A stretch of DNA of 39,602 nt from NCBI GenBank assembly GCA_903901045.1, contig CAIUPP010000035.1:1-39602 (forward strand), written 5' to 3'. Made by a program: the position numbers and the translations under genes. The stretch comes from an uncultured Planctomycetota bacterium. Its GTDB lineage: Bacteria > Planctomycetota > Brocadiia > CAIUPP01. Shown here one piece after another: positions 621 through 39,602 of this stretch. Numbering within the stretch: the first letter of the stretch is position 1; every line of letters starts with the position of its first letter. The notes under the pieces were generated by a model, which was not told the DNA's origin, ran no database searches, and saw only the letters and a list, made by a program, of their open reading frames with translations.

Positions 621-652
621 GCGGGTTTTGGCCGTCTGAGGATGCTTCAGCA

Positions 653-1783: not shown

Positions 1784-1871
1784 GTTGTCAGCGATCGTCA
1801 TCCGTTCTCGCCGGTTTGGCGGACGTGCAGGCTCCTGATGGGTTAGGAAGGTTTTATTAGGAGGGCGTGTT

Positions 1872-3215: not shown

Positions 3216-3228
3216 ATTGCATGGCGAC

Positions 3229-3261
3229 CGGGCCGGGGCGCCACGCAGGTTCCCCGGCCCG
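3229..3261 (+). terminator. Strong GC hairpin between pseudopilin and LamG gene (first copy)
   Basis: CGGGCCGGGG (3229-3238) pairs perfectly with CCCCGGCCCG (3252-3261), a 10-bp stem with a 13-nt loop, just after the pseudopilin stop. No clear T-run follows, so it may be a partial terminator, an attenuator or an mRNA 3'-end stabiliser. Equivalent hairpins sit at the same place in the other two units (19779-19804 and 34909-34940). The remaining bases to 3516 show no gene and no convincing promoter. Confidence 0.7.
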
Positions 3262-3516
3262 TCTTGCCCGGATGCGCCGCGAAGAGCGATATCGCGCCCC
3301 TGGTTCGTTCCATCGATGCCCGGTCCGGGCCACTCCAAAAAGAAAGTTGTGGTCAGGGACCATCCTTCAGCTTATGCTTCCAGTGGAAGGGGGACTCCAG
3401 TGCGCGTCAATTTCACTCGCCGGCGTCCCTTTAACTGCGTGCGCGCCCAGTCACTGTGAATGGCGGCGGGCGGTTTCGCTTCGCGTTTCGAAGAGGCCAT
3501 GAGTAGGAGAAAACGC

Positions 3517-15248: not shown

Positions 15249-15312
15249 GCGCTGTAGCATGGCAGTAGTTTGGCATTGGTATTCCTCAGTTCCTGATCTG
15301 GTGTGGTGGAAA

Positions 15313-16437: not shown

Positions 16438-16529
16438 CCGAAAGAGGGGACGATAGACGAGAATGGCTGGCGGGGGAACTCATCAAGGTCGTGAGTTCAT
16501 GCAGGAAGTTTCCATCTGAGAGAAATCGA

Positions 16530-18245: not shown

Positions 18246-18456
18246 CCCCTCCGGGCATCCGGCGCTTACACTGGAAAAGGGGGTGATACAGAGAGAGTGA
18301 GAGTGAATGAAGTACAGTATCGGGCTTTGTGGAGACGCTGTTTGGGCAATCGTGATGAACCACAGGTCGATAGGAAAGGGCAGATCGATGGAAGCGGTTA
18401 TGTGTGGGCTGGTGATTTTGCTGTTCGCGCGTGTCTTGTTTGGAAGGAGACAGCCG

Positions 18457-19755: not shown

Positions 19756-19778
19756 GCGGCTCTTGATGTCATGCTGTA

Positions 19779-19804
19779 CCGGGGGCCGCTTCGGCGGCCC
19801 CCGG
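19779..19804 (+). terminator. 11-bp TTCG hairpin between pseudopilin and LamG gene (second copy)
   Basis: CCGGGGGCCGC (19779-19789) and GCGGCCCCCGG (19794-19804) form a perfect 11-bp stem closed by the very stable tetraloop TTCG. There is no T-run. Position matches the hairpins at 3229-3261 and 34909-34940. Confidence 0.75.
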
Positions 19805-19898
19805 CCCGCCGTGCGGCAGTTCCCACCTCGCGATCGGAATGAAATGCGGACGTCCCCTTTACTAATACAGGCCTTTGGCCTGACAATGGAGACACGCC

Positions 19899-22800: not shown

Positions 22801-25721
22801 CAGAGGAGAACGGACGGCGCAGTTTCCGCTTTACGGAGACCGAAGGGAACGTTTATGCGGATACACTGCCGCCAGCGGGGATGAAACCGGACTTCATGCC
22901 CATTCTCGGCACGAGCCAGATTGGCACACCCATTGCTTTCGGCGCTACTGGGCCAAGCGGCGGCAGCGCGACAGCGGCGCAGCTGATGGGATGTGTGCGG
23001 ACCTTCCTGCGGCATAGCATGGTTTACTATCACTATTGGTTCCCGGCCATTCCGCTGCCCGGCCAGCCCGGCGGCGGTGGGTACGGCCCGATCATTAACA
23101 TGTTCCCCATTACACCCGTGCGGCTCTTCGAGGGTGGGATCATCGGGCAGGAGCGCATCATCACCTGCGTCTCCAATCCTCCCGATGGGACCGGCTCGTT
23201 CACTTGGAGCAATTCGCAAATGCCGAACGTTCAGGTGTTTGACACGAACGGCATGCCGAAGATGGGGAACCTCTTTGTTATCACCCCCTCAGGCGGCGGG
23301 TGGAGCGTGCACTTGACCCTTGCGGACTGGTCGGACATCGCCGTGATCTCCGGAGGCGGGGAACAACAGACGTGCCCAGTGGCAGTGCAGTCCACACCGG
23401 CCGCAGGCGCGGCGGTCACCGGCACGGTTGCCGGCACGACCAACTACAGCGCAGGATTCAATCCGGGTACGCCTGTCAGTTTCACCGCACCGGCGCAGTT
23501 TACCGCCTCCGGCGGGACCGATTACCAGTTCACCAACTGGCTCCTGCGCCGCGATGCCAACATCGTGACGCGTTATCGCCTCGATGACGGCGGCGCCAGT
23601 ACGACGGCGGCCGATTCCAGCGGATGGGGGCACACCGGCTCCCTCAGCGGGGGAGGCTCCTGGGTCTCCGACGGCGGCCACACCGTCCTATCCTTGGACG
23701 GCGTCAACGACATCGTCAACTGCGGCAGCGGCGGGATCTTCGATTCGACGACCGGACCGTTCACTTTGAGCGCGTGGGTCAAGCCCGCCGTGCTTCCTCC
23801 TCCGCAGGTAGACTCCGGAATTGCGGGAAAGGACTACGCGTATTTCCAACTGAGCTATTACCATGATGGAAACTGTTACTTTTACGTGGATTGGGGGAAC
23901 GGCGGCGGCTGTGTCGGCACGCCCATGCCGGTGAATACGTGGACACATGTCGTCGCGACGTTCGACGGGACGAACGTCTCCATTCGCCTGAATGGCGGAA
24001 CTCCCGTCGTGGCCGCTTGCGGGCAGTCCACCATTCCGATCGGAGGCAGTTTCGTGATCGGGAAGTGCACGAATGGGTATTTCAATGGGAAGATCGCCGA
24101 TGTTCGGCTCTTCAACCGCGCATTGTCGCCGACGGAAGCCCAAACACTTTACACGCTGGGGATGGACGGCCCCGTGCTGACCGAGACGCAACCGAATGGG
24201 CAGCAGACGGTCACCTTCACCGTGAACGAACCGGTTACGGCGGAGGCGGCGTACCAGGTCGTCCAACGGCAATTGACCGTCAATTCAACCCCTGTCGCCG
24301 GCGTAGCGATTACCGGTACGAGCGCCGGAACCACCGATTACACGGCGGCCGTGAACGACAACAGCGCAGTCAGCCTGAGCGCGCTAACCACATTCTCAGA
24401 GTGCGGTGTCGACTACTCCTTCCTGTACTGGCAGCTCAATGGCGTCAATCAGCCTAACGGCCAAACCACGCTCGCTTTCACTATTCAGGCCGACAGCACC
24501 GCCGCGGCGGTGTACAACGATGTGCCGGCGGTCACCATCACCGCCCCCTCAGCGGGCCAGACGTACAACGCGCCGGTCACGCTGACCGCCACGGTATCCG
24601 ACACTGTCGGGACGATCAGCAAGGTGGAGTTCTTCGAAGGGAGCACGCAAATCGGGCCAGACCTGACAAGTTCTCCGTACACGTACAACTGGACCAATCC
24701 CGCGACGGGTAGTCACACGATCGTCGCCAAGGCCACCGACAGCTACAACGCGGTGGGGACTTCCAGCGGGGTCGCCTTTACCGTGAACGATGTGCCCGGC
24801 GTCAGCCTGGTGGTGAGCCCCGGTTCTCCTCAGGCCGCTCCGGTTACGCTCACCTTGACCGCGACGGTCACCAACACCTATGGCACAATCAGTCAGGTGC
24901 AATTCTTCAACAACGGGATGCTGATCGGCACGGACATCACCAGCCCGTACTCAATCAGTTGGAGCAGCGTCGAGGCCAGTGGCAGCAACGGCCTGAGCTT
25001 GACCGCCAAGGCCACCGACAGCTACAGCGCCGTCGGGACGTCCAACACCGTGTCGTACACCGTCAACGACAGTGCGCTGAAGTGCTACTGGAAATTCGAC
25101 GATCAGACGAGCGGGAGCGGCGGCACGGCGGCCGATTCCGCCGGCAACAGCAACACGGGCACGGTGACCGGAGCATCGTGGCAGACCGGAGGCAACGCTA
25201 GGGTCATCAACTGCCTTTCGTTCAACGGCAGCAGCAATTACGTGCAGAAGACGAGCGCCACCGGCCTGCCGGCGGCGAATGCGACGCAGACGCTTGGCCT
25301 CTGGGTCTATATCCCCGCCACCTATCCGACCATCAAGAAAACGGCGCTAGCGGTCACCGGAAGCGGCGTGGCCACGAACATCGGCTTGGCCAAGATCGGT
25401 TCGACGATGTACTTTGGCGTGTGGAGGTACGACGGTACGCTGCTGGTTTCCACCACTACGTTGCCCACAGGGGGCGTATGGCACTATGTGGCCTACGTCA
25501 AGAACGGCAGCACGAACTATCTGTACATTGACAACAACGCGGCCATTACCTCAACGATCGCCACCGACGGCAGCACCAGTCGCACGGTGATCAATGCCGG
25601 CCGGACCGCCAGCGGAGCGGACTACTGGCCGGGCAAACTTGATGAGGTACGCATCTATAGCCGGGTGTTGACGCAGGCGGAGATACAGGGGCTGTACAAC
25701 AGCGGGAGCCCGAGGCAGTAA
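19899..25721 (+). CDS. Giant secreted multi-LamG protein with glycosidase-like barrel
   Basis: The 1940-residue protein has a signal peptide ending near IQA (about residue 26). Domains in order: LamG (about 29-235), LamG (about 243-445), beta-sandwich (about 450-690), a TIM-barrel-like region (about 700-1080, with LNPWLDYDPGS and TCGLDGYYTDQF), an InlB-type beta repeat split by a third LamG (residues 1220-1423), an intact InlB-type repeat (about 1450-1530), two bacterial Ig-like domains (VTITAPSAGQTYNAPVTLTA, KVEFFEGSTQIG; second copy QVQFFNNGMLIG) and a C-terminal LamG (about 1727-1935). GGAG precedes ATG 19899. No PEP-CTERM, T9SS or LPXTG sorting signal is visible at the end. Probably an extracellular glycan-binding and cleaving enzyme; substrate unknown. 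Confidence 0.85.
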   Translation: MHFPRIVRSGLLALAVCACSAELIQAATLKAYWKLDEGSGTQALDSSGNGLTGTITGAVWKQRGNGYILQFDGTGTFVNCGNPAALDLTGPLSLSVWVRPDLVPSPYPAEPLIAGRNMFTNYAMTYYVDGISYGYIGGGGNNVQSNALTLREWSHLVMVYDGTYMRLYRNGAQIGVDHLSTSTPQSNSNPFYIGKRTDVAKYFQGVIADVKVYSGALTIGEVQSEYNTGTAGRFQPQGDDSLVAHYPLNEGSGTAAHDATNPSGEDDGVLSEANWVQYGSNQFLMFDGIDTKVDCPSGPWLSLTGPLSVSAWVWSDQPPGYEAGIAGKHPNSYLLSAYAFDRTDYFYIGSGTNHINGAPLSGGWSHMVGIFDGTYLRMYVNGTALTPVLSSVGNVPAGGDFWIGYNPGLTYGNYFNGMISDVKVWKRAITEGDVLADYNAGIAGRYAPLSVTCPDVTGNYVSISKTDANGTLSARIGNDAGQKGVIEVFVPGTSAHFLLESDFSYPGGGPSFRNAFSHLTYTKESAWSPVATQLAADRAKITAQGSCFSVERTITLASSGRIDVSDVFTNLGGVNAVGVLTESTVTAQAAFTSSRLGLGQCDPFIFGAQPAYDIGLLANDRISRSQFMPSLDGNLLRSRMYHFALSPSGSQTLNYSLYPYVPLTAYKGDPLNFVNMARAGLGSNCTIQGPAEFLDATGPIVTDPVALKDHLKRMGTKIVLLNPWLDYDPGSSLTTIQTRAQYQAIVQPAYAAVKAADPTVKVIGCMETDWVNMDADAIDPNYDPNDPDHHLPRWTGGASSWGWLNAAQTQLIIDYHTAHPGALPWLDSDKWSVVRDKDGNMAWEVYHRGGPGLYSLCVYPATGNYQKDFMLNQASFIVDTCGLDGYYTDQFNLANSQSYKKLDSGNNTVSDWDGVSVNIDPGNGQILATNGKYVDCSVAGVDARGAIIDYSISNPNRIHVGNSYASSSEENGRRSFRFTETEGNVYADTLPPAGMKPDFMPILGTSQIGTPIAFGATGPSGGSATAAQLMGCVRTFLRHSMVYYHYWFPAIPLPGQPGGGGYGPIINMFPITPVRLFEGGIIGQERIITCVSNPPDGTGSFTWSNSQMPNVQVFDTNGMPKMGNLFVITPSGGGWSVHLTLADWSDIAVISGGGEQQTCPVAVQSTPAAGAAVTGTVAGTTNYSAGFNPGTPVSFTAPAQFTASGGTDYQFTNWLLRRDANIVTRYRLDDGGASTTAADSSGWGHTGSLSGGGSWVSDGGHTVLSLDGVNDIVNCGSGGIFDSTTGPFTLSAWVKPAVLPPPQVDSGIAGKDYAYFQLSYYHDGNCYFYVDWGNGGGCVGTPMPVNTWTHVVATFDGTNVSIRLNGGTPVVAACGQSTIPIGGSFVIGKCTNGYFNGKIADVRLFNRALSPTEAQTLYTLGMDGPVLTETQPNGQQTVTFTVNEPVTAEAAYQVVQRQLTVNSTPVAGVAITGTSAGTTDYTAAVNDNSAVSLSALTTFSECGVDYSFLYWQLNGVNQPNGQTTLAFTIQADSTAAAVYNDVPAVTITAPSAGQTYNAPVTLTATVSDTVGTISKVEFFEGSTQIGPDLTSSPYTYNWTNPATGSHTIVAKATDSYNAVGTSSGVAFTVNDVPGVSLVVSPGSPQAAPVTLTLTATVTNTYGTISQVQFFNNGMLIGTDITSPYSISWSSVEASGSNGLSLTAKATDSYSAVGTSNTVSYTVNDSALKCYWKFDDQTSGSGGTAADSAGNSNTGTVTGASWQTGGNARVINCLSFNGSSNYVQKTSATGLPAANATQTLGLWVYIPATYPTIKKTALAVTGSGVATNIGLAKIGSTMYFGVWRYDGTLLVSTTTLPTGGVWHYVAYVKNGSTNYLYIDNNAAITSTIATDGSTSRTVINAGRTASGADYWPGKLDEVRIYSRVLTQAEIQGLYNSGSPRQ

Positions 25722-27286: not shown

Positions 27287-28282
27287 TCATGCCTGCCGGC
27301 ACGGGCCTATGGACTCGCGCTCGATGAATTCGGGCACAAGCGTGACATTAGGGACTTTCTCGCCCTTCATGAGGCGCACCAGCATGTCCACGGAATGGTT
27401 GCGCATGGCATCGCGCGGTTGTCGGAGCGTCGTCAATTGGGGTGAAATGATGCCAGCCGTGCTGATATCGTCATGCCCTATAACGGAACAATCGTGCGGA
27501 ATTTCCAAGCCGAGTGCCTTCAGTGCGAACATCGCCTCGATGGCCATCAGGTCGTTGCTGCAAATGATCGCCGTCACGCTCTTGAACTCAGCCCGATGCC
27601 TCATGAGGTATTCTCGTACGAGGCCGGTCTCACTTCCGGTCACATGGACTTGTGTTTCGTCCGGAAGGCCTGCATCCCGCAGGGCGGCCATGTAACCAGC
27701 GCGCTTCTGTTCGGTGCCCTCGATGGATGGCGCCACGAATGCAATTCGCCTGTGGCCGAGTTCGACCAGGCGCTCTACGGCCTTTCGGACGCCGGCGGCT
27801 CGATCAGTCATCACCCATGGATGGCCGGGCACTTTCTCTGCGGAATGAACGACGCAGGGAATATCAGCAGGAATATATTGAGCCGACTTGCTTCCGTACA
27901 AGCCTGAATGGAAGAGGATGCCATCCACTCGTCGCGCCCGCAGTTCTCTCAAGGCCTGCTCTTCCAGGGCGAAAGATGGGCGGCTCTCAATCATGATGGT
28001 TCCATAGCCGTGGGCCTGAAGCGCTTCGGTCACGCCGGACATGAGATATCCGTTGACCTCCGAATTGAAGAACCCGCCCACGATGCCCACCATGTTTGAC
28101 CGGCGCTGTCGCAACGCTCTGGCGAAACAATTCGGCGTGTAATCCAATTCCTTAGCCGCCTCACGGATAATGCGCTTGGATTCCTGGGAGGCATAGCAGC
28201 GTTTGTCCCCGGAAAGGACCCTGGAAACGGTGGACGCCTCAAATCCCGTTCTCTCGGCCACGTCCTTGAGTGTCACGCGCAC
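27287..28282 (-). CDS. LacI-family transcriptional regulator
   Basis: The 331-residue protein has the canonical LacI headpiece at the extreme N-terminus (VTLKDVAERTGFEASTVSRVLSGDKR, hinge LDYTPNCFARALRQRRS) and a periplasmic-binding-protein-type sugar domain (LGHRRIAFVAP, AIICSNDLMAIEAM, CSVIGHDDISTAG). GTG 28282 was chosen because it places the headpiece at residue 2 and has AAGGAAG upstream; the longer frame to 28369 would run through the operator and promoter. Its own promoter (28329-28357) and an imperfect palindrome (28314-28329) lie just upstream, so autoregulation is likely. It probably controls the oxidoreductase at 25972. Confidence 0.92.
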   Translation of the reverse strand: MRVTLKDVAERTGFEASTVSRVLSGDKRCYASQESKRIIREAAKELDYTPNCFARALRQRRSNMVGIVGGFFNSEVNGYLMSGVTEALQAHGYGTIMIESRPSFALEEQALRELRARRVDGILFHSGLYGSKSAQYIPADIPCVVHSAEKVPGHPWVMTDRAAGVRKAVERLVELGHRRIAFVAPSIEGTEQKRAGYMAALRDAGLPDETQVHVTGSETGLVREYLMRHRAEFKSVTAIICSNDLMAIEAMFALKALGLEIPHDCSVIGHDDISTAGIISPQLTTLRQPRDAMRNHSVDMLVRLMKGEKVPNVTLVPEFIERESIGPCRQA

Positions 28283-28313
28283 GAGACTGTCTTCCTTAAT
28301 AACAATGGATTGA

Positions 28314-28329
28314 TAGCATACGATTGCTA
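28314..28329. promoter_or_regulatory. LacI-type operator
   Basis: TAGCA (28314-28318) and TGCTA (28325-28329) are inverted arms around a 6-nt spacer with a central CG, the arrangement typical of LacI-family sites. It abuts the -10 box of the regulator promoter. Confidence 0.55.
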
Positions 28330-28357
28330 GTGTAATCCTTCTGAGGCCGGAAGTCAA
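28329..28357 (-). promoter_or_regulatory. Promoter of the LacI regulator
   Basis: On the minus strand TTGACT (28357-28352) and TACACT (28334-28329) are separated by 17 nt. The start would fall within the operator at 28314-28329, about 40 nt before the GTG codon at 28282. Confidence 0.6.
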
Positions 28358-28376
28358 CACGATCCGCACCTATGGG

Positions 28377-28513
28377 GAACGCGGGAGCGTTTTCCCACGC
28401 TATGGGTAACAGCAAGACGCCGCGTTGAACGCGTTTCGCGGTCGTCTTCTCTCCGCAGACCATCCATTTCGGCCGCTTCCGGCGTCAGATGGAATTTACG
28501 GGATGGACAATTG
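28377..28513 (+). repeat. Repeat family B, copy 2 (137 bp)
   Basis: The segment matches 15004-15140 at 127 of 137 positions by eye, no gaps. It lies directly upstream of the LacI promoter but in the opposite orientation relative to the regulator, whereas copy 1 reads towards its regulator. No plus-strand gene follows it, so it may be left over from a lost cassette. Confidence 0.8.
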
Positions 28514-28539
28514 CGGTAATCGCCGCCAGCCTTCAGCGG

Positions 28540-29029
28540 GTCAATCCCGTCCCTGTCCCGGAATATCCGTTCGATGACCGCCTGACAAACGCGTTCGACC
28601 TCTTCGAGCGTCCTTCCGTACACGCCAGGAGGAAAGTTCAGCTTGCACACGTCCTGGGTTACTCTTTCCATCGCATCCTCCTGGATCGGCTGCACAGTCA
28701 GATTGGTTTCGTCCGCGATGATGCGATTCCCTTTGCAGCGCAGAATGAGGGCCTTGATCCCATATGCCTTCAGACCCCGCCTGTGGAAATGGATCGGCCA
28801 ATCCAGCGGCACGTTGAACACCCGCGCGGCGCGAAAGGTATTCGGTTCCTTGAACTCTGTTCCGGCCATGAGGCGATATGGCAGAAGACGCCCCCTTGGC
28901 GCGGTCGCAGAACGCACTGGCCACGTTGAACCTCGCGAGGGTCTCCGTCAGGCCGTCTTCTCACTGCCGGAGGTACACGGGATCGAGGCAGGCGTTACAG
29001 ACCAGACGAACTTGCTTACGCAATGCCAT
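28540..29029 (-). pseudogene. Decayed gene of unknown function behind the DapA-like gene
   Basis: A strong ribosome site AAGGAGG (29046-29040) and ATG 29029 follow the DapA-like stop by 26 nt, but the frame stops after 22 residues (MALRKQVRLVCNACLDPVYL..). The same frame resumes past the stop as EDGLTETLARFNVASAFCDRAK, and a protein-like stretch appears in another frame downstream (VFNVPLDWPIHFHRRGLKAY, LTVQPIQEDAMERVTQDVCK). This pattern of good start, early stop and frame change suggests a broken gene. The last segment is faintly like the C-terminus of DegT-type aminotransferases, a resemblance too weak to name a function. Confidence 0.4.
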
Positions 29030-29055
29030 CGCCAGCCGTCCTCCTTGTCAGGGGT

Positions 29056-29970
29056 TCAGCCGAGCCACTTGGCATGCTTGTTGACCATGATTCCCCGGCA
29101 TTTGTGATAGACGTCTTCCGAGAAACAGTGATACGGAGAGAGAAGGCGCAGCGGCATTTCGACTCCGGCTATTCGGGCAAGCATCTTGTCATAAGCCCCG
29201 TCGACAGGGTCACGGAACTTCGTTGGCTCAAGGAAGTCGTGGATGACTTGGGCCATCCCTCCCGCAATGGCAAGTGCCTCGCCAGACCGCCCGCGGCTGT
29301 CGGCATCATAAAGTTGCTTCGTCTTCGTCGGCATCATGCCGCCAAAAGAACTGAGCATCGAGCATTCTCCATACAGGCAACCGTAGGGGAAGAGGAACTC
29401 GCCGAAGAAGTGCTGAAGGTCCGGCGCGTTCGTCATCAGGTCCACCACGCGCATGACGCTGTCGCCCGTGTTCTTGGTCGCAACCAGGTTCGGCACTTCG
29501 TCGGCAATGCGTCGGTAGTCCGAACCGTTCAGGAGCCTCTTGGCGCGCATAAGGTTGTAGTGAAGGAACTTTGAGTCGGGGAAAGCGCCGCACACGTCCC
29601 TGAAGAAGGTCCGCATTTCATCGTTGTCGAGGACTCCCCACGACGGGAGCGAAATCTGAAATTCGCGGAATCCCAACTGGTGGGCAAACGCGATTCGTTC
29701 TACGATGTTCGCCGTGGAAAGGCCGATGGTCCCCACCTGAGGAAAGACGCCGGCTCCCTTTGTCTCTTCCCGGAAGACCGTGACGACCTCGCGGAAACGT
29801 TCCGTATCCACGGCGTAACCTTCCCCGCACGTGCCAAACACGTACACATGGTTGAACCCCTTGGCCAGGAGGTCACGCACGAGTTGACGGAACGCGCCCT
29901 CGATCAGGCGTTCCTTATCATCCCACGGGCAAACCGTCGAAATCAGCATTGCTTGTGGATACCTCGCCAT
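29056..29970 (-). CDS. DapA/NanA-superfamily class I aldolase
   Basis: The 304-residue TIM-barrel lyase of the dihydrodipicolinate synthase / N-acetylneuraminate lyase superfamily has the carboxylate-binding motif GTCGE (46-50, variant of GTTGE), the catalytic tyrosine Y138 in FLHYN and the Schiff-base lysine K166 in LVATKNTGD. In a carbohydrate operon such paralogues usually cleave or dehydrate 2-keto-3-deoxy sugar acids or sialic-acid-like compounds rather than make lysine precursors; this is inferred. ATG 29970 lies two bases behind the stop of the amidohydrolase remnant, whose last codons contain the ribosome site. The remnant and this gene were once translationally coupled. Confidence 0.9.
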   Translation of the reverse strand: MARYPQAMLISTVCPWDDKERLIEGAFRQLVRDLLAKGFNHVYVFGTCGEGYAVDTERFREVVTVFREETKGAGVFPQVGTIGLSTANIVERIAFAHQLGFREFQISLPSWGVLDNDEMRTFFRDVCGAFPDSKFLHYNLMRAKRLLNGSDYRRIADEVPNLVATKNTGDSVMRVVDLMTNAPDLQHFFGEFLFPYGCLYGECSMLSSFGGMMPTKTKQLYDADSRGRSGEALAIAGGMAQVIHDFLEPTKFRDPVDGAYDKMLARIAGVEMPLRLLSPYHCFSEDVYHKCRGIMVNKHAKWLG

Positions 29971-29972
29971 TT

Positions 29973-30345
29973 TCAGCCCTTGTCCTTCAATTTTAAACCA
30001 AAGAGTAGTACGGCATTGTCACTCAGGATCCGTCGTTTCTGTCGTTGCGTAATATCGGCATATTCTATTCGAGCACGCTGCATGGGAGCGAAATAGAGCG
30101 GGGCTGTCCGAGCCGAAGAGTATCTTCTCCGCGCCTGCCTCCCCCACGGCCCATTCGAGGAGCCGGTTCGTGATGGACTTGGCGCTGAAAGTGTCCGCAT
30201 AGACGTCCATTCCGCGCCGCCTGTATGGCGCGCGCTTGTTGGGAGGGATCGCCGTCCAAATCATTCCCCAAATGCGCCAGGATGAGCCGTACGCCGGCAT
30301 TCCTGGCGGCCCTATTCCTTCACCCGGCTCTCACGTCGGCCACGC
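29973..30345 (-). pseudogene. Amidohydrolase family 2 remnant (frameshifted, N-terminus lost)
   Basis: Three frame segments join into one amidohydrolase C-terminus: NAGVRLILAHLGNDLDGDPS and following in one frame; DVYADTFSAKSITNRLLEW to GAEKILFGSDSP in the next; LYFAPMQRARIEYADITQRQ and ILSDNAVLLFGL in the third. AHLGND and LFGSDSP match the conserved metal-site histidine and aspartate regions of the family. There is an in-frame stop before the first segment, and the N-terminal HxH half is absent; the LamG gene ends at 30354 just upstream. Either two true frameshifts or sequencing errors could explain the frame changes, but the missing half argues for a dead gene. Confidence 0.75.
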
Positions 30346-30353
30346 GTGCCCGG

Positions 30354-33300
30354 TTATCGCTCACCGAACACAAACTCGCCGAAATTGGCGTCCAAGTTGA
30401 AGAACCCGCCGCCTGAGTAGGCCCAGCCGGAGAGAGTCGCCTGGCCTCCCTGGCGGAACAGCCCGGCGGTCCAGACGTCCCCCTTCTTCGGGGCAGGGAC
30501 GCCGAAATCGGACCAGGGGATTGCCACCTCGGCCTGCCAGGAAATCTGGAAGCCAAAGTCGGTGGCCGCCTTCCATGTGCCGTTCCAGTCCACATTAGCC
30601 AACTTCACCTGCGGGTCGTCATACACCCCGTCCCACTGTCCGCCGCCGGCGCTGACGCAGAACTGGTAGACCTTGTTGACCCCCTTAGGCATGAGGTAAA
30701 TCTCGATATTCGGTGGCTGGCAGCACTGGCGCGCATCGTGGGTCAGCTTGGTTGGCAGCCGCAGGATCGCTTCGATGCAGCGCGCGCCGACGTACAGGTT
30801 CTTGTCGTCATAACCGACGTAGTAGGTCGTTTGGCCGCCGGGAACATCCAGCCGGGCGGCTTTCGCCCAGTCGGCATCGTTCAACGCGCCGGTCAGCGGC
30901 GGTGGGGTGGGCATGTACGAGATCACCGCTTGTTTCCGCTGGACCTTCAACTCCACTTTCTCCGAGGCAGGGCGGGGGACGAAGCGGAAGTCGGAAACGT
31001 ACGCGCTTCCGGCCGGCAGCGTCCAATACAGCGCGGACGTGCGCTCCCAGTCCGCCTTCGGGTGGGTGTCGAACTGGTCCTCCAGGATCGTGAACTCCTT
31101 CCAGCCGGCGAAGTCCAGCGGGATCTTCTTGACGAAAGCGTTAGCGCCGTTCCCGAATGCGAAGATCAGTTCTCCCTTCGCCGAGCCGCCATTCACCTTG
31201 AAGGTCACTCCCTTGGTCCCCTCGAAAGGGGAGTTGAACGGACTGATGATCCGGCCCGGACCGGTCATCTTCCAGCAGGGAAGACCATCGAACTTGTCCG
31301 CCTCGATCTTCGCCGAACCCTGGTCGCGCAGGTAGCTGAGGGCGTAGTCATTGTACTCGTTCCGTTTCACCGGCGTCAGCGGCGCCGGTTGGCCGCCCTG
31401 CGCCCGGGTCACCACGATCTGGGTATCGCCTCTGGCGACAGGGACTTTTGCGAAGTTCTGGCCGCCGAACGCCAGCGTCTCGCAGGCCACCGGCTTTCCG
31501 TTCACAGACGCCTGCGCCCCCTGCCATCCGGCCGGCAAGAGCGCAAGGATTTCGGCGGCGTCGGCCTCGCTGCGGACGGTCAGACGCACATCATTCGCGG
31601 CCATCGCGCCGTCAATCGCCACGCCGCGGCCGCTGGACATCAGATAGTTCATCCGCCGTCCGTCCGCGGAGTACACAAAGCCAGGAACCTGGCTCAGCGT
31701 GGTCATCCTGAGGATGTTGTACTTCAATCCCGGCGCAACGATCGTGAGCGCGCCGGCTGCGGGGGTGAGGATGTCGAACTGATACGACTCGGAGTCATAC
31801 GACTCGCGCAGATGCTCCGTAACCGGGGGGTGATAGTGAGCGTGCTCGATGAGCGGCTGAATCTGCCAGACATAAACGGGCCGCTGCGGGTCCAGCGCCA
31901 GGCCGGCCAGCGAAAGGGTGATGCTCTCCGTCCGGGTTTCCTCCGCATGGTTGACCACGGGCAGGAGGTAGCTGTTCCCTTGCTTGAGGAAGGCGCTCTC
32001 GAGCGTGGTCGTTTCAAAGGTCCACCAGTTCGGGTGGACGTTGTTGTTGACCAGAAGTTCGTTGTCTTTGACCTCGTAGGACAGGTCGCTGAACAGCAGC
32101 GTATGGGCGATGCCGAGGCTGCTCCACAGCGTTCCCAGGTGCGGCTTGAGGCCGTACATGGCGTAATGGTTGGAGTGGCCTTGTGAACTCCAGTAGAGAA
32201 TGCAATTGATGTTGGGCGGACGCATGGCGCGCGCCATGACATAGGCCATGTTGGCCATCGTGCGCCAGTCCTTCTTGTCAATCGGGTCGAAGGGGGCGCC
32301 GTACTCGAAGTAGCCGCCGTGCGAGGTGTCCGGGTAGCAGCCGCCGTTCTGGAAGTGGATTTTGCCCATCTCCTCGGCCACCAACTTCATCCCGCGCAGG
32401 ATGATGTGCGAGTGGTAATTGTGGACGAAGTTCATCTGCGGGAAGAAGTTGACCGCCTCGCTGTGGCCGCCGTCCACGTAGGTCATGTCCACGTCGAGGT
32501 TCTTGAGCATCTCGCGGCGCTGGTTGAGGATGAAATCCACCTGGTCCTGGGTGACGCAGTTCAGGAAGTAGTTGTAGGTCTCGCCGGAGCCGTACTGGCA
32601 GAGGTCGCCATTCTGGTTGCGCAGCAGCCACTCCGGGTGCTCCTGGTACGTCTTGGACTTATCGGAGGCGCTGCCGTACCATGTATAGAGTCCGAGACGC
32701 ATGCGGGCCGGGTCGAGCGCGTGGAACTTCTCCAGGTCCTTGTTGATCGAATCGGCGCTGCGTACGGCGGGATGCGTGCCGGTTCTATTCAGCGGAAGGA
32801 TGGTTCCTTTGGAGGCATAGTCGCCGGTGATCATCACGTCGCTCAGGAAGGTCGGCAGCATCTCGCCGGGAGCGCAATCCGCCAGGATGTTCTCCGCCCG
32901 CCCGTTGCACCAGCCGGTGTTGTAGGCGATGCTGTCATAATCATAGTGACCGACCGTCTTGACGCGATGCCACCATTCCGGCACTTTGCTCCTGGCCATC
33001 TCCGCCATGTCGGGCAGGTTCATCATGTGATCGTGGAAGGCGCGCGCGTCCCCGTCCAGAACGGCCAGGTGCGTCTCAGCGGAAAAGAAATATCCCTCCC
33101 GGACCACGTCGCCGCTGATGTATCCTTCCCATCCCTGGGGGTCAAGATAACCCTGGTCTTCAATGACATCCGGCATGAAGGCGATGGTGAAGAAGCGCTC
33201 ATAGTGTCCATTGATCTTGAACCGATAGTGGCTGAACATCAGGTTCGTCTTCGGCTGCTGATAGGCGAAAAAAGAACTACTCAAGTCTTGGATGGGCTTG

Positions 33301-34874
33301 CGGGCCTTGACCTCGCTGCCAAGGGCGAAGGGGACAGTCCCGGTTCCGGGGCCGCTGCCGCCGTCCCAGATCGGGCGGTAGATGTAGCCGTCCTTGCAAA
33401 AATCCGGCGTCATCGTCAGGGCCGAGCGAAGGAAAAATAGCTTGCCGTCGTTCGCGTCCGTCGTGGCGCGGAAATAGACGACTTTCGTGACGTAGTCCTT
33501 CTCCAGTCGATACGCTTTCGTCAATTCGATATCCGGCAGGCCGGGGTTGGTGCAGACCAGTTCAAAGCCGTCGGGCTTGCCTTCGGCGCCCTGGCGGAAG
33601 CCGATCACCTTGTCGTTCGCTTCGGAGACGCGCGGACTGTCCTTGTCGCCGAAGAGGTAGATGTCATGGCTCTCCTGGACCACCGAAGTGTTGTCCGGCA
33701 GGTGTACGACGCGAACAACCTGGCCAGTGACGGGGGAGATTTCGCACTCGACCTTGTCGCTGCGCAGCGTCAGTTTGGCCGGCGGGGCCGAGGTGGGGCG
33801 CTGCTCCGGCGTGCGGGTCAGTCCGATGTACGGGCGCGCGGGGTATTTGGGAATCTTGAACGACCCGGTCGAAATGACCTCTTTATTCGGCGCGCGTAAT
33901 GTGGCGCGGATTTCATAGTCGCCAGCCGGCCACTCCGTGGAGGGGAAGGTCACGACGACCTTGCGCGGATCGGCCATTCCCTCCAGTGTGCGCGCGGCCA
34001 CGGGTTTCTCCTGCCCGGCGGCGAGTACTTGGACGTCCACGGCTGGCTTGAATGGCAACGTTTCCGCGCCGGAGAGGTCGAGCGCAACGTGCAAATTCTT
34101 CCCCACGAAGAACGGCAGAGGACGGAAGCCCACGTCAATGACCGGGATTATCTTGTTGTCCTTCGGGGCGTCCGCGGCGAGCGCCTGGATCTCCTGGCCG
34201 GAGAGGGTGCGGTTGTAGATGCGGACGCCGGCCAGAGCGCCCTTGAAGAACATCTTCAGCTCAGGACCGTACCGGCCCTTGCCCAGGACGAGGTTGACGG
34301 GGGTCTCAATCCAGATCAGCGGGTTCTCCGTGCGCGCGCGCGTGGTGTCCAGCGCGCCGTCAATGTACAGCCGCTCCTCGTGTGTCTGCAGGTCGTACAC
34401 CACCGCCACGTGATGCCACTCTCCCACCGGCAGGACGCCCTTTGAAACGGTGGAGGTCCAGTGCTTCTCAGGGACGTCGGAAATGGTGGTGAACCCGACG
34501 TTCCCCTTGTCGGACAAGTAAACGTTGTAGTCGGCCTTGCCAACGACGTAATACTTCTGTTGCTTGGGCAAGGGGGCGTCGCGCATGACCCACATCGCGA
34601 TGCTCAAAGGACCGGGAATCCCCAGCGTTTTCCCGTTGCCGCAGTCCACGTAGGATTGGACGCCGTCGAACTGAAGCGCGAAGCCGCCCGCGCGCTTGAC
34701 CCAGTGCGCGCCGGCGATATTGCCGATATTGCCATTGCCGCTCTTGTCGGCCAGGGCCGCGCCGGAACCCTCCGAAAGGGGGTACCAGGCCGCCAAGCCT
34801 TCTTCCGCCCGCGCTGCCGAGGCGGCGGCAAGCGCCACGATGCACGCCAAGACAAGGAAACAAGAGCGACTCAT
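30354..34874 (-). CDS. Giant secreted LamG / alpha-galactosidase-like / CBM9-like protein
   Basis: The 1506-residue protein has a signal peptide ending ARA|EEG (residue 23). ATG 34874 has AAGGAG 8 nt upstream; the longer TTG start at 34880 is less likely. Domains in order: LamG (about 28-232, AAWYPLSEGSG to VRIYNRTLSGQEI), beta-rich region (about 245-620), a TIM barrel (about 640-960) reminiscent of alpha-galactosidases of GH36/GH27 type (TYQEHPEWLLRNQNGD near 731, LDVDMTYVDGG near 798 with the candidate catalytic aspartate), a beta domain, and a C-terminal CBM9-like module (about 1320-1505, LTGALNDADWAKAARLD, NLYVGARC, NIEIYLMPKG). It is separated from the pseudopilin by a hairpin, as in the other two units. 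Likely extracellular; substrate unknown. Confidence 0.85.
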   Translation of the reverse strand: MSRSCFLVLACIVALAAASAARAEEGLAAWYPLSEGSGAALADKSGNGNIGNIAGAHWVKRAGGFALQFDGVQSYVDCGNGKTLGIPGPLSIAMWVMRDAPLPKQQKYYVVGKADYNVYLSDKGNVGFTTISDVPEKHWTSTVSKGVLPVGEWHHVAVVYDLQTHEERLYIDGALDTTRARTENPLIWIETPVNLVLGKGRYGPELKMFFKGALAGVRIYNRTLSGQEIQALAADAPKDNKIIPVIDVGFRPLPFFVGKNLHVALDLSGAETLPFKPAVDVQVLAAGQEKPVAARTLEGMADPRKVVVTFPSTEWPAGDYEIRATLRAPNKEVISTGSFKIPKYPARPYIGLTRTPEQRPTSAPPAKLTLRSDKVECEISPVTGQVVRVVHLPDNTSVVQESHDIYLFGDKDSPRVSEANDKVIGFRQGAEGKPDGFELVCTNPGLPDIELTKAYRLEKDYVTKVVYFRATTDANDGKLFFLRSALTMTPDFCKDGYIYRPIWDGGSGPGTGTVPFALGSEVKARKPIQDLSSSFFAYQQPKTNLMFSHYRFKINGHYERFFTIAFMPDVIEDQGYLDPQGWEGYISGDVVREGYFFSAETHLAVLDGDARAFHDHMMNLPDMAEMARSKVPEWWHRVKTVGHYDYDSIAYNTGWCNGRAENILADCAPGEMLPTFLSDVMITGDYASKGTILPLNRTGTHPAVRSADSINKDLEKFHALDPARMRLGLYTWYGSASDKSKTYQEHPEWLLRNQNGDLCQYGSGETYNYFLNCVTQDQVDFILNQRREMLKNLDVDMTYVDGGHSEAVNFFPQMNFVHNYHSHIILRGMKLVAEEMGKIHFQNGGCYPDTSHGGYFEYGAPFDPIDKKDWRTMANMAYVMARAMRPPNINCILYWSSQGHSNHYAMYGLKPHLGTLWSSLGIAHTLLFSDLSYEVKDNELLVNNNVHPNWWTFETTTLESAFLKQGNSYLLPVVNHAEETRTESITLSLAGLALDPQRPVYVWQIQPLIEHAHYHPPVTEHLRESYDSESYQFDILTPAAGALTIVAPGLKYNILRMTTLSQVPGFVYSADGRRMNYLMSSGRGVAIDGAMAANDVRLTVRSEADAAEILALLPAGWQGAQASVNGKPVACETLAFGGQNFAKVPVARGDTQIVVTRAQGGQPAPLTPVKRNEYNDYALSYLRDQGSAKIEADKFDGLPCWKMTGPGRIISPFNSPFEGTKGVTFKVNGGSAKGELIFAFGNGANAFVKKIPLDFAGWKEFTILEDQFDTHPKADWERTSALYWTLPAGSAYVSDFRFVPRPASEKVELKVQRKQAVISYMPTPPPLTGALNDADWAKAARLDVPGGQTTYYVGYDDKNLYVGARCIEAILRLPTKLTHDARQCCQPPNIEIYLMPKGVNKVYQFCVSAGGGQWDGVYDDPQVKLANVDWNGTWKAATDFGFQISWQAEVAIPWSDFGVPAPKKGDVWTAGLFRQGGQATLSGWAYSGGGFFNLDANFGEFVFGER

Positions 34875-34908
34875 TGGCAAGACTCCTTACAGGTGGGTTC
34901 TTGGGGGA

Positions 34909-34940
34909 GCGTCCCCGGCGGGGTGCGCTGCCGGGGACGC
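34909..34940 (-). terminator. 11-bp hairpin between pseudopilin and LamG gene (third copy)
   Basis: GCGTCCCCGGC (34909-34919) and GCCGGGGACGC (34930-34940) form a perfect 11-bp stem with a 10-nt loop. It lies between the stop of the pseudopilin (34963) and the start of the LamG gene (34874), the same place as in both plus-strand units. Confidence 0.75.
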
Positions 34941-34962
34941 GCAGAGTGTGGCCGCGGACGGC

Positions 34963-36330
34963 CTAGTTCAGGTTGTACGGGTAGTCCGGCGCGTCGACAT
35001 CTATGCTGTTGCTGGCATCCAGCAAGTGCCAAACCTCCACCGCGCTGATATTTCGATACGAGGCAGTGTCCGGGTTCTTCCCGGTCCGGAACGTGCCATT
35101 GTCCGTGCCGTCCGGCGCCCAATTGTAAATGCCGTTGACCTGGATGGAGGCACTGAACGTGTAGGTGCTCGGCCAGGTATCGGCGTAGTAGGAAGGGAGC
35201 CACCACATGATCTGCTGCTGCGGGTCGCCGTACCAGCGCGCGCTCCAGTCGCCGTAGAGAACGTTGTAGCCGTCGCGGTGCGCGTACTGTCCCTTGCCGA
35301 CGAACGGCGTGTTGCCGTAGGTGCTGTTGTAGTAGCAATCAGCCTGAGAGAAGCTGTCGCTCACCAGCGCGCGCCCGCCCAGTTGCTTCTGCGTCTTGAA
35401 GATAGGATTTCCGGGGCGCACCCGCTGGGCCGGCTTGATGTGCCGCATCCTGACGCCGTCCGTCAGATGGTTGGCAACCACTGCGTTCGACATGTTGTAC
35501 CATGTGCTCAGTCCCACCATCGCCGGGACGTCGCGGTAATTGTAGTTGCTCTGCACGGCGCGGAAATACAGTCCTTTCGCGTAGTTGTCCGAGTTCATGC
35601 CCGAACTGACCCAATTCAGGTTTGTCATGTTACCGTGGCTGATTGAGTTGGCATCAAATCCTCCGAACGTGCGCAGGTCTCTTGGCGACGCCGCTGCGAA
35701 CATCGGCTTATTCTTGATGCTGAGCGCCGAGCCGGCGGCCACTTCGCCGGAGTCGGCGGGCATGTTGTCCCCGGCAGAGGGACAGAAGAACGTCCGCGCA
35801 TCGCCCATATATCCGCAGTCGAGCAGGTAGCCCAAGCCGATCCCGGTCAGGTTGAAATGGCCTGCTGCGCGCGCCTTTCCGTCCGCGGTGGTCCACGGCG
35901 TGTTGCTCGTTTCCTTCTGCCCCACATAGATTGTGCGGAAGTACCAGACCGGCAACCGGTTAATCGTGGAGCTGGTCTCGCCGTTCGTCCGCCAATCGAA
36001 TCCGCCCGTACGCAACTCTTCGCCAAGCTTCGTGTCCTTGACGATGCCCGCATCTGCGCAGTTCCAGACGCCACAATTGCTGCTGGAAACGGCGCCGGTG
36101 AATCCGCCATAGCCCGGCCAGCAAGGAAAGTACGAACCGAAGTCACTGCAGTAGCTCTCCAGACCCCGGCTCATCTGGCTCAGGTTGTTCAAGCAGGCCG
36201 TGCGTCGCGCCTTTTCCCGGGCCGCCGCCAAGGCCGGCAGAAGCATTCCGGCCAGAATTGCAATAATCGCTATCACCACAAGCAGTTCGATCAACGTGAA
36301 CGCCGCACTCCACCTCTGCAAAGACCTCAT
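34963..36330 (-). CDS. Type II pseudopilin-like protein with HX9D C-terminal motif (third copy)
   Basis: The 455-residue protein starts MRSLQRWSA and then the prepilin helix [19 protein letters not shown], with [19 protein letters not shown] behind. It shares with the others [35 protein letters not shown], the HX9D motif [20 protein letters not shown] and the tail [20 protein letters not shown] precedes the ATG. It is the first gene of a minus-strand operon whose promoter at 36541-36569 matches the consensus exactly. Cleavage by prepilin peptidase and assembly by a type II/IV machinery are expected from the family; neither is encoded here. Confidence 0.92.
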
Positions 36331-36515
36331 AAGATTCTCCTTTTTTCCAAAAATCCCTTGTGCCTTGCAGCCTCGCGGTCGCCTCGCCCGACCTCTCGCG
36401 CACGACCTGTGGTTTCCGTCACCGCTGAAACCGGCTACCTTCCCTCTCCGCCACCTCTTTTTTGCCCGCCTCTTGCAAATTCCTAAGGGCTGCGTTATAT
36501 TGCGAGTGGTGGTCT

Positions 36516-36537
36516 AGTGGTATTCCTCTATACCACT
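36516..36537. promoter_or_regulatory. Operator palindrome in the divergent promoter region
   Basis: AGTGGTAT (36516-36523) and ATACCACT (36530-36537) are perfect 8-bp inverted arms around a 6-nt spacer. The site covers the expected start of the leftward promoter and lies about 50 nt before the FadR-type regulator gene, so that regulator is the probable binder. GGT..ACC symmetry fits FadR-subfamily sites. Confidence 0.7.
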
Positions 36538-36540
36538 TGA

Positions 36541-36569
36541 ATTATAGTAACCATTCTTTGGATTGTCAA
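36541..36569 (-). promoter_or_regulatory. Perfect consensus sigma70 promoter of the leftward operon
   Basis: On the minus strand TTGACA (36569-36564), a 17-nt spacer and TATAAT (36546-36541) match the consensus at all twelve positions. The start would be near 36534, inside the operator palindrome. A promoter this strong implies that the bound repressor sets expression of the pseudopilin and LamG genes. Confidence 0.8.
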
Positions 36570-36584
36570 GGGAGGAAAAGAAAG

Positions 36585-37334
36585 ATGCCAATCATGCTGA
36601 AACCGCTAGCGCGTGATTCCCTGATCAACCGCGCTGTGGAGACAATCCACAACTATATCATTGACCGGGAGATGAAGGGGGGAGACCCTTTGCCCTCCGA
36701 GCGGCAGATGGCCAGCGCGCTGTTCATCAGCCGGGTGACACTTCGGAATGCCCTGGCAGTTCTGGAAGGAAGGGGGACTATTCACCGCGACCGGTCCGGC
36801 GCGGCGGTGGTCGCGCCGACCATAGGCATGCGACACGCGGGCGATCCGGAGAAGTTGCGGAGTGAATTGGCGCGCCTCAGAAACTTACGATCCGTCGCCG
36901 AAGTGGGCGCTGCCGAATTCGCCTGCCGTCATCGCACCGACGAAGACGTGGCGCGCCTGCGCGACATCGTGGGCGACATGTCCAGGGAGAACAAGGCGGA
37001 GCATTCCATCACAAGCAAGGACGCGGCGTTCCACTTCGCGCTGCTCCGTTGCGCCGGGGAGTTGTTTGTCCCGACATTCGGCGAAATGATTCGGGAGTTC
37101 TTTCGCCTGGCGACGGCCGCCCGTCCCTTGGTCATGACCAATCCGCAGAACGAGGATATCATCCTGGAGCACACACACATGGTGGATGCGCTCGAAAGAC
37201 GTGACCCATGCGCGCTGCGCGCCCTCCTGATCCAATCGTATGATAAGGACAAGGCTGGCCTCAGCGCCACGGTTCAAAAACGCGTCACGGACAAACCGAT
37301 GGAAACTGATGAGCGGATGTTCGCACGCGCATAA
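36585..37334 (+). CDS. FadR-subfamily GntR transcriptional regulator
   Basis: The 249-residue protein has an N-terminal GntR winged helix (about 15-75: PLPSERQMASALFISRVTLR, LAVLEGRGTIHRDRSGAAVV) and an all-helical FCD effector domain (about 90-230) with potential metal ligands in SKDAAFHFALLRC and EHTHMVDALERRD. FCD regulators usually sense carboxylic or sugar acids such as uronates. ATG 36585 was chosen because GGAGG lies 9 nt upstream; an upstream in-frame ATG at 36462 would run across the operator. The gene is divergent from the pseudopilin-LamG operon and shares with it the palindrome at 36516-36537. A sugar acid inducer would fit the DapA-like aldolase in that operon; this is inferred. 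Confidence 0.9.
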   Translation: MPIMLKPLARDSLINRAVETIHNYIIDREMKGGDPLPSERQMASALFISRVTLRNALAVLEGRGTIHRDRSGAAVVAPTIGMRHAGDPEKLRSELARLRNLRSVAEVGAAEFACRHRTDEDVARLRDIVGDMSRENKAEHSITSKDAAFHFALLRCAGELFVPTFGEMIREFFRLATAARPLVMTNPQNEDIILEHTHMVDALERRDPCALRALLIQSYDKDKAGLSATVQKRVTDKPMETDERMFARA

Positions 37335-37764: not shown

Positions 37765-39045
37765 GTGCGAGCGAATCAGAAGCCGGATGGCTTCTACCGC
37801 AGCAGCAAAGCGCAGCACAGGCAACTAGTTTTTCAGGCGCTTTATCATCAGGGACCCATCAGCCGATACAAGTTGGCTGAAGTTCTGAAGTTGCGATACC
37901 GCACCCTCCGGCGCTTGCTGAGCGAGATGTTGCATGAAGGGATCATTCAGGAAAGCGGCAATGTGATCGTTCGCCGCGGCCGCGCCCCGATCTTTCTGAG
38001 CGTCAATCCGCATGGCGGTCGAATCATCGGCATTGCCCTTGACGCCTGCGAAGTCACAGGGGTGTTGGTGGGGCTCGACCTATCGTTGCAGCGCACCAGC
38101 CATGCAAAGATCGGCCGGAATTCCTCTCGCAAAGCGATCCTGGAGAACATACACTCCGTCATTGCCGAACTGCGTCAGTCGCCCGAAGGGCGGATGGCGC
38201 CTTTGTGCGGCATTGGCTATGGGGAATATGGGCTTGTGGATGCGAACGCAGGAGTTGCCGTGCGCAGCACTTACCATCGCGCATGGCACGATGTTCCCAT
38301 CAAAGAGCAACTACAGAAGAGCTACGGCGTGCCGGTCAGCATCGAGACCGAAGAACGCTGCGTGCTCCTGGCCGAACACATTTGGGGGGCCATTCCCGAT
38401 ACCCAGACCGCCTTGCTCATCGAAGTGACCAGTGGGATTGGCTTTGCCGTGCTGGATCGAGGAGAACTGTTCTCTGGCGCGCGCGGGTTCGGTGGAGAGT
38501 TGGGACATATCCGTCTCGTTCGTGACGGAGACGCCTGTCCGTGCGGTTCGCGCGGCTGTTTGGAAACGGTGGTAAGCACGCGCGGGATCATCGAGGAAAT
38601 GCGCCAAGGTCTTAGGCATGAAAGGGGCGGGACGCCTGCGGGGCACGCCGATAGGGTGACCTTGGAAAGAGTCATTCAGTCGGCCATGCAGGGTGATGCT
38701 TTGGCCGGCCATGTGGTGGGGAAGACGGCCTCGTATCTGGGCCAAGCTGCCGGCATCGCCATCAACCTGTTCAACCCGGATGCCGTCCTGCTGCGCGGTG
38801 AAATGTTTCGGGTGGGCGGCTCCTGGCTCTTGGACACTGTGCAGCATGAGGCGGACTCCTGCGTGCTCAAAGAACTGAAGATGGGCGTTCGATGGCGTCT
38901 TTCAATGCTGGAAAGCGCGGCCGCACGGGGAGCTGCCGCCCGCGTTTTCGCGGAGATATTCGGCTTCAATCTGTCACTCTTGCCGCGGCCCGCTGTGCCG
39001 ATCCTTGAGAAGAGCCGGCGCACGATGGCGCGTGAAGGGCGATAG
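37765..39045 (+). CDS. ROK-family transcriptional regulator (NagC/XylR/Mlc type)
   Basis: The 426-residue protein has an N-terminal winged helix (about 15-65: HRQLVFQALYHQGPISRYKL, RTLRRLLSEMLHEGIIQESG) and a ROK sugar-kinase-like domain (about 85-400). ROK marks are GARGFGGELGHIRLV with the metal-binding histidine and the cysteine motif C258-P-C260-GSRG-C265-LE that binds zinc in the family. The presence of the helix-turn-helix makes it a regulator rather than a kinase. GTG 37765 with TTGAGGTG upstream was preferred; the frame is open to 37588 and ATG 37681 is possible but would overlap the TATAAT at 37695. It precedes the fourth pseudopilin and probably controls it. Confidence 0.88.
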   Translation: MRANQKPDGFYRSSKAQHRQLVFQALYHQGPISRYKLAEVLKLRYRTLRRLLSEMLHEGIIQESGNVIVRRGRAPIFLSVNPHGGRIIGIALDACEVTGVLVGLDLSLQRTSHAKIGRNSSRKAILENIHSVIAELRQSPEGRMAPLCGIGYGEYGLVDANAGVAVRSTYHRAWHDVPIKEQLQKSYGVPVSIETEERCVLLAEHIWGAIPDTQTALLIEVTSGIGFAVLDRGELFSGARGFGGELGHIRLVRDGDACPCGSRGCLETVVSTRGIIEEMRQGLRHERGGTPAGHADRVTLERVIQSAMQGDALAGHVVGKTASYLGQAAGIAINLFNPDAVLLRGEMFRVGGSWLLDTVQHEADSCVLKELKMGVRWRLSMLESAAARGAAARVFAEIFGFNLSLLPRPAVPILEKSRRTMAREGR

Positions 39046-39210
39046 ACGACTCTGGCCCGGGTGGATACTGCGAAGAATCGAAAGTGCGTCTCAAGGTGCC
39101 TTGCCGTCGCAACTCGGGGAGAGCCGGAAGACAGGGCAGCCGGCTGCTCCTTGGGGGTAGCTCGATAGGCTCTCGATTTCCGGTGCATCCGGGCATTTCC
39201 CATTTTCGTC

Positions 39211-39240
39211 TTGACATATTCCCGCCGCGTGCTATATTAT
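39211..39240 (+). promoter_or_regulatory. Promoter of the fourth pseudopilin unit
   Basis: TTGACA (39211-39216) is a perfect -35 box. TATATT (39233-39238, 16-nt spacer) or TATTAT (39235-39240, 18-nt spacer) can serve as -10. It lies about 85 nt before the pseudopilin ATG. The rest of the ROK-to-pseudopilin gap (39046-39210) holds a 12-bp palindrome GCAGCCGGCTGC but no gene. Confidence 0.7.
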
Positions 39241-39247
39241 GCGCATA
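39238..39247. promoter_or_regulatory. Palindrome at the transcription start
   Basis: TATGCGCATA is a perfect 10-bp palindrome at the -10/+1 junction of the promoter at 39211. Its position suits a repressor site, with the ROK regulator upstream as the likely binder; the site is short, so chance is possible. Confidence 0.4.
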
Positions 39248-39323
39248 GGCACAATACATGATGTGGACGATTGCGTGTTTCCCGGGTGTGCCGGGGAACG
39301 AGTGCTTCTTTGGAGGGCGTGTC

Positions 39324-39602
39324 ATGCAAGAGGCGCGACGGATGTCGAGGAGGTTCTGGTCGGCGTTCACGCTGATCGAGCTGTTAGTCGTCATCGCGAT
39401 CATCGCCATTCTGGCCGGGATGCTGCTGCCGGCGCTGGCGGCGGCGCGCGAAAAAGCGCGGCGGTCGGCCTGCCTGAACAACCTGAACCAGATGGCCAAG
39501 GCGCTGGAGAGCTACTGCAGCGACTATGCCGGTTACTTCCCCTCGTGGGCCGGTTCGGGCACGAATTTCACCTGGTGCAAGAACAGCGGGGGAGCCTGGA
39601 CC
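39324..39602 (+). CDS. Type II pseudopilin-like protein, N-terminal part (fourth copy, cut by window end)
   Basis: The first 93 residues are present: a basic leader ([14 protein letters not shown]), the prepilin helix [19 protein letters not shown], then [20 protein letters not shown] and [16 protein letters not shown], as in the complete copies. GGAGG lies 8 nt before ATG 39324. The HX9D motif, the C-terminal tail, the hairpin and a LamG gene are expected beyond the window. Confidence 0.92.

Follow-up and report, generated by a model that had tools for sequence, protein, structure and literature searches.

The DNA between the P0001 regulator gene and the pseudopilin gene of the window (the whole stretch of 39,602 nucleotides that was analysed) probably forms an autoregulated divergon. 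As judged from the sequence, an FCD-type GntR regulator would act on a three-box operator between two facing promoters and would control a unit of a pseudopilin gene and a LamG enzyme gene. The locus itself varies on a type of switch already known, and the genome-wide pairing of pseudopilins with regulators is the more interesting lead. Coordinates are collected in Table 1.

Table 1. Features of the divergent locus and places of the REP-like element.
Feature	Position	Strand	Remark
Half-site boxes TGGT (36510-36513), TGGT (36518-36521), ACCA (36532-36535)	36510-36535		
24-bp operator core GGTCTAGTGGTATTCCTCTATACC	36511-36534		22/24 the same as the perfect 10+4+10 palindrome at C130
Perfect 8+6+8 inverted repeat AGTGGTAT-TCCTCT-ATACCACT	36516-36537		covers predicted leftward start 36534
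-35 TTGACA of leftward (pseudopilin/LamG) promoter	36564-36569	-	6/6 match
-10 TATAAT of leftward promoter	36541-36546	-	6/6 match, spacer 17 nt
Predicted 5' leader of leftward transcript	36331-36534	-	204 nt
Candidate rightward regulator promoter TTGCAA-17-TATATT	36473-36501	+	9/12; faces leftward promoter across operator
FCD-type GntR regulator P0001	36585-37334	+	249 aa, probable autorepressor
Pseudopilin-like P0002	34963-36330	-	N_methyl PF07963, DUF1559/SBP_bac_10 PF07596; first gene of leftward unit
LamG-domain protein	30354-34880	-	1508 aa; weak GHL6 and Melibiase matches below cut-off
DHDPS-family lyase/aldolase	29056-29970	-	possibly in leftward unit (383-nt gap)
REP-like element	L003 from 1336; L004 2391-2433; L022 1392-1434; L052 2321-2363; L091 952-994; L097 538-580		

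All 12 positions of the leftward promoter (36541-36569) agreed with the sigma70 consensus. It has no TG ahead of its -10 element and was the only exact sigma70 promoter with a spacing of 16-18 nt in the window. The consensus-perfect, optimally spaced promoter of the original prediction was thus confirmed. In sigma70 promoters the -10 element precedes the transcription start by about 7 nt, and the leftward start is predicted at 36534, 6 nt past this element. No Rfam match was obtained between 34900 and 39602, the leader of the leftward transcript included, at E values up to 1.

Exact TTGACA/TATAAT sites with 16-18 nt spacing occurred 30 times in the 4.77-Mb genome, against 0 for the reversed pattern. 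At least 12 of the 30 adjoined LacI, GntR or pseudopilin genes in phmmer searches with window proteins, the neighbours having been classified for these kinds alone. Seven of these 12 stood directly before a regulator, three before a pseudopilin, and two were divergent to a regulator. One exact promoter was located 24 nt ahead of a tRNA-Pro gene, and the gene behind another is one that we take to encode ribosomal protein S2. As exact promoters also serve housekeeping genes, promoter perfection alone does not imply repression. The earlier argument, that a promoter so strong when unrepressed implies tight control, is therefore reasonable but does not hold as a general rule in this genome.

Within the region from 60 nt before to 40 nt after the -10 end, 5 of the 30 exact promoters had an inverted repeat that no more than 10 of 300 shuffles could equal. 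Strong repeats (scores 11 and 12, 0 of 300 shuffles) were seen at L103 (C110:20561-23561), where the exact promoter stands before a LacI gene, and at L112 (C153:36677-39677). ARAGORN also predicted a tRNA-Sec at L107 (391-488, minus strand), about 1 kb downstream of an exact promoter.

P0001 carried both a GntR domain (PF00392, 41 bits, cut-off 27) and an FCD domain (PF07729, 55.9 bits, cut-off 24.3), in agreement with the divergent FadR-type regulator that had been predicted. The best named profile was NanR (NF003011), with 76 bits, below its cut-off of 260, and the best PDB chain in a single-sequence search was E. coli NanR 6on4 (E 2e-12). When a profile of four paralogues was used, LldR (2di3), NanR and PdhR chains scored about equally. 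The paralogues of P0001 in the same genome, named here by their loci, were 56% (C130), 51% (C17) and 41% (C95) identical to it, and the identity of the four proteins to NanR was 18-24%. No relative of P0001 was found in genome_contigs or viral_contigs, in 74 other genomes of the class (E 1e-25) or in a sample of 391 other genomes of the phylum (E 1e-30). With no orthologue found outside the genome, a cross-species footprint was not available. The structure model of the regulator was too poor to be of use (mean pLDDT 43.6).

PMC8012715 describes R128 of NanR as carboxylate-binding and D172, H176, H222 and H244 as zinc ligands. A 32-residue N-terminal extension mediates the cooperativity of NanR. 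In the alignment to MG1655 NanR, R128, D172, H176 and H222 were identical in all four paralogues, and the column of the fourth zinc ligand, H244, held His in 0 of 4. As R128 and three of the four zinc ligands are kept, a ligand bearing a carboxylate is plausible from this alignment. P0001 begins at about NanR residue 20-24, and most of the N-terminal extension is missing; a NanR-like multi-dimer complex is therefore not demanded. Identity as a uronate regulator was rejected, because P0001 scored far under the curated cut-offs for UxuR (43.7 of 442 bits) and ExuR (34.5 of 396 bits). The uronates named earlier for binding assays thus gained no positive support.

The perfect 8+6+8 palindrome claimed at the leftward start was found at 36516-36537, over the predicted +1, and its arms extend to 10/11. 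Dinucleotide shuffling of 36510-36549 equalled it 12 times in 3000, and shuffling of the intergenic region of 254 nt did so 12 times in 500 (p about 0.02). Across 377 kb of own-genome sequence, perfect repeats with 8-nt arms and loops of 0-12 had a density of 0.86 per kb, a figure that includes nested and overlapping ones. By itself the palindrome is modestly unusual, and the site stands above chance because of its conservation at the paralogue. Strong palindromes were not general at pseudopilin promoters: where a promoter scored 10/12 or better (17 upstream regions), the window locus and L059 alone had repeats that no more than 1 of 100 shuffles matched.

These shuffle frequencies, together with the consensus promoters at housekeeping genes, would suit a palindrome that arose by chance or acts as an RNA hairpin beside a constitutive promoter. 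The predicted rightward (regulator) leader would indeed carry the entire repeat. However, the leftward RNA would not contain the whole repeat and cannot form it, since its predicted start falls within one of the arms. The lack of an Rfam match and the recurrence of the 24-bp core and the box array at paralogues also argue against this explanation, which we consider very unlikely.

The N2-centres of the three boxes in the window are 36514.5, 36522.5 and 36530.5, in steps of 8 bp, and the boxes read GGTCTA, GGTATT and, inverted, GGTATA. Read as an array, the sequence has the 8+6+8 palindrome as its boxes 2 and 3. The box centre was taken from GT-N2-AC sites of several FadR-subfamily groups (PMC4494728), a definition chosen once the sites had been seen; if the centre is taken as 3 nt, the spacing in the window becomes 8/7.

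The site is conserved at C130, the locus of the closest paralogue. C130 carries the perfect 10+4+10 palindrome GGTCTAGTGGTATTCCACTAGACC, from which the window 24-mer differs at 2 positions. When as many as 3 mismatches were allowed, the pattern GGTCTAGTGG-N4-CCACTAGACC occurred at 2 places only in the whole genome, the window (2 mismatches) and C130 (0 mismatches). An intergenic blastn comparison (E up to 1) of C35, the window locus, with C130 gave the 24-bp core as the sole similarity (22/24, E 7e-5), also on the opposite strand, and the regulator genes of the two loci aligned at 67%. As the 24-mer alone is alike between intergenic regions whose regulator genes are at 67%, this result indicates a footprint and not a recent copying of the whole region.

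The three-box array, in the order +,+,- and with steps of 8/8 bp, was present at the window, C130 and C17, that is, at three of the four regulators of this one genome that the array reading covers. Boxes 2 and 3 of C17 were readable on both strands. As background, triads with steps of 8 or 9 bp in any orientation occurred in 91 of 40000 random 70-nt stretches of the own genome. C95 showed two 9-bp two-box sites, one per promoter. Two-box sites were found in 3.9% of random 70-nt stretches and in 20 of the 63 pseudopilin upstream regions, and since they are common, C95 alone adds little. A triad was present in 2 of those 20 upstream regions, the window and L010. About 300 nt upstream of the FCD regulators L076 and L080 contained no triad, and none was detected in a whole-locus scan at the FCD regulator L081, whose start was not located.

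A single FadR-type dimer bound symmetrically to the 8+6+8 palindrome, with the box at 36510-36513 idle, could also block the leftward promoter, given that this repeat has no mismatch and lies over the leftward start. An inverted counterpart (GGTM-N8/9-KACC) of its core, GGTA-N8-TACC, was seen by eye, without a background count, at each of the three paralogues. This alternative leaves the first box unexplained, and the perfect palindrome at C130 is a different one, with its centre 4 bp off that of the window. The spacing is also against it: the FadR subfamily has 2-3 nt from GT to AC (PMC4494728), and the window site has 10 nt. No TKGT-N2/3-ACMA site with at most 1 mismatch was present in 36441-36600. 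Sites with 1 mismatch were detected at C130 (one), C17 (two, N2) and C95 (one, N3), and the single canonical sites of C17 and C130 (1 mismatch) fall in the register of the box array. We regard the single dimer as unlikely. The FadR-type operator of the original prediction is accordingly replaced by the three-box array that the paralogues favour. The 8-bp box spacing suggests, by analogy, adjacent dimers with one consensus box each, as for NanR on GGTATA. A duplicated regulator with slightly diverged operators in one genome offers a clean test of the box-array reading of FCD-GntR regulators against simple palindromes.

Although the two genes diverge, the promoters predicted for them point towards one another. 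The rightward start is predicted at about 36508, so that the predicted transcripts overlap at about 36508-36534 (about 27 nt). The best regulator-side promoters of the four regulators had 9, 8, 7 and 8 of 12 matches, scores often attained by shuffled sequence, and they are the least certain element of the layout. The first box was located 8, 5, 5 and 2 nt past the best-scoring regulator -10 element. C130 showed the same layout (TTGCGG-17-TATAGT, 8/12; TTGACA-17-TACAAT, 11/12), and at both C35 and C130 a TTGACA-17-TAYAAT promoter faces the 24-bp core at 6-7 nt. At C95 the two promoters point away from one another. Each has a separate site, and that of the pseudopilin promoter includes its -10 element.

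Relative to the predicted rightward start, the boxes of the window reach from about +3 to +28, and relative to the predicted leftward one from about -1 to +25. As the boxes lie over both predicted start regions at C35 and C130, a single bound complex should block both promoters. In the proposed mechanism, the FCD-GntR protein would sit on 36510-36535 and repress its own promoter together with the leftward promoter. A small ligand, probably with a carboxylate, would free the operator, and the leftward promoter would then fire strongly. Since the predicted transcripts overlap and each polymerase crosses the opposing promoter, induction may also lower the regulator by transcriptional interference.

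Activating FCD regulators exist, and the annotation of E. coli nanR is that of a dual regulator, so we also considered the GntR protein as an activator or dual regulator with the array as its activating site. The boxes are at or downstream of the predicted starts and not upstream of the -35 element, and a 12/12 promoter should not need an activator. Activation is therefore highly improbable here.

The LamG reading frame opens with TTG, with an ATG at 34874, and lies 82 nt from the pseudopilin gene. At C130 the divergent gene encodes a LamG protein 71% identical to that of the window over 1511 aligned positions, and no pseudopilin was present between the operator and this gene. The LamG/glycosidase-like gene is therefore the target common to both loci, and its product is a probable secreted sugar-active protein. 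High induced output of pseudopilin, as first predicted, is thus too narrow a description of what the promoter would deliver. The DHDPS-family gene gave DapA, NanA, KDG-aldolase and KdgD profile matches, all far under cut-off; uronates are thus neither backed nor excluded, and the gene does not identify the ligand. No terminator-like site was detected on the minus strand of 28300-36600, in a weakly informative scan that gave 7 sites compared with 7.3 in shuffles. The pseudopilin structure model was too poor (mean pLDDT 29.0).

The window was also observed to be a run of modules (572-8274, 15259-25721, 27287-36330, 37765-39602) in which a sugar-type regulator is combined with a pseudopilin and a large protein of the LamG/GH kind. 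The module regulators are GntR-PBP at 572 and 15259, LacI at 27287, FCD at 36585 and ROK at 37765. In the next cassette, the ROK regulator (37765-39045) is followed by a pseudopilin starting at 39324, whose promoter (39212-39241, plus strand) showed 11/12 matches with 18-nt spacing and a short TATGCGCATA palindrome at the -10/start region. A palindromic element resembling REP sequences (GTGGGGACACAAWACTTTCC, together with its mirror) was found at six distinct places in the own-genome DNA examined, two of them upstream of GntR paralogues.

N-terminal matches to P0002 numbered 69 in the genome; one internal TGA was noted in some pseudopilin matches. The start finder kept 63 pseudopilin starts; the others lacked a motif match or had insufficient sequence upstream. 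Within 320 nt of these 63 starts, promoters of at least 10/12 were found at 17 and of at least 11/12 at 10, compared with 11 and 1 of 630 shuffled controls. With the five window regulators as queries, a regulator was located within 1.7 kb upstream at 32 of the 63 starts, 9 of them divergent. A LamG gene came next at 9 of the 29 starts having enough downstream sequence.

Counted from the regulators, a PF13377 match of the LacI/GntR-PBP kind lay at most 1.5 kb upstream of a pseudopilin start in 29 of 44 cases (expected 0.95), and an FCD match in 4 of 7 (expected 0.15). The expected counts assume uniform placement, which ignores that genes cluster by function and is therefore rough, but the excess is still nearly thirtyfold. 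Such a regulator was paired with 33 of the 69 pseudopilins, and about half were unpaired. In the sister genus G001, 14 of 23 regulators were paired against 0.52 expected. Three other genomes of the class gave 2, 6 and 13 P0002-like matches and 1, 2 and 4 regulators, and none of the 7 regulators adjoined a match, although more distant pseudopilins may have escaped the search. Of the sugar-type one-component regulators counted in this family of bacteria, some two thirds each front one pseudopilin, partly with a large LamG/glycosidase gene behind.

We tentatively suggest that the locus may belong to a set of about three dozen pseudopilin cassettes that can be switched, from which the cell would pick a pseudopilin and the matching secreted enzyme for each substrate. 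If so, the pseudopilin would be a custom part in a machine for secretion or surface filaments, or else a fibre that captures the substrate. The puzzling expansion of pseudopilins would then become a testable idea, that of substrate-specific pilins induced with their enzymes. In a literature search, with subscription journals outside its reach, no paper had both DUF1559 and pseudopilin, and among the matches listed none contained DUF1559 or gave an account of pseudopilin-regulator pairing.

Coliphage 186 has opposed promoters, pR and pL, with overlapping transcripts and a repressor between them. Compared with this switch, the window would have a one-component metabolite regulator over a pilin/enzyme unit, and its interference is putative. 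The divergons of the FadR subfamily have a regulator divergent to its target, with the operator between, and extra half-site boxes 7-12 nt from the site centres (PMC4494728). The window shares this gene arrangement, but differs in its GT-AC distance, its lack of a canonical site within 1 mismatch and its facing predicted promoters.

The operator of E. coli NanR is given as (GGTATA)3 in PMC8012715, and the nan boxes, read from the MG1655 genome, are 9 and 8 bp apart. P0001 is also an FCD GntR protein, and the box spacing agrees, with centre-to-centre steps of 8-9 bp between boxes of the form GGT(A/C)T. The third box of the window is inverted, whereas the NanR repeats are direct, and P0001 mostly lacks the N-terminal extension, does not keep H244 and has no identified sialic-acid genes beside it. 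DUF1559 pseudopilin-like families are known from Planctomycetes, Lentisphaerae and relatives. The present set resembles them in being large and paralogous with a prepilin N-terminus, and P0002 carries DUF1559, but here about half of the set (33/69) has a sugar-type regulator directly upstream.
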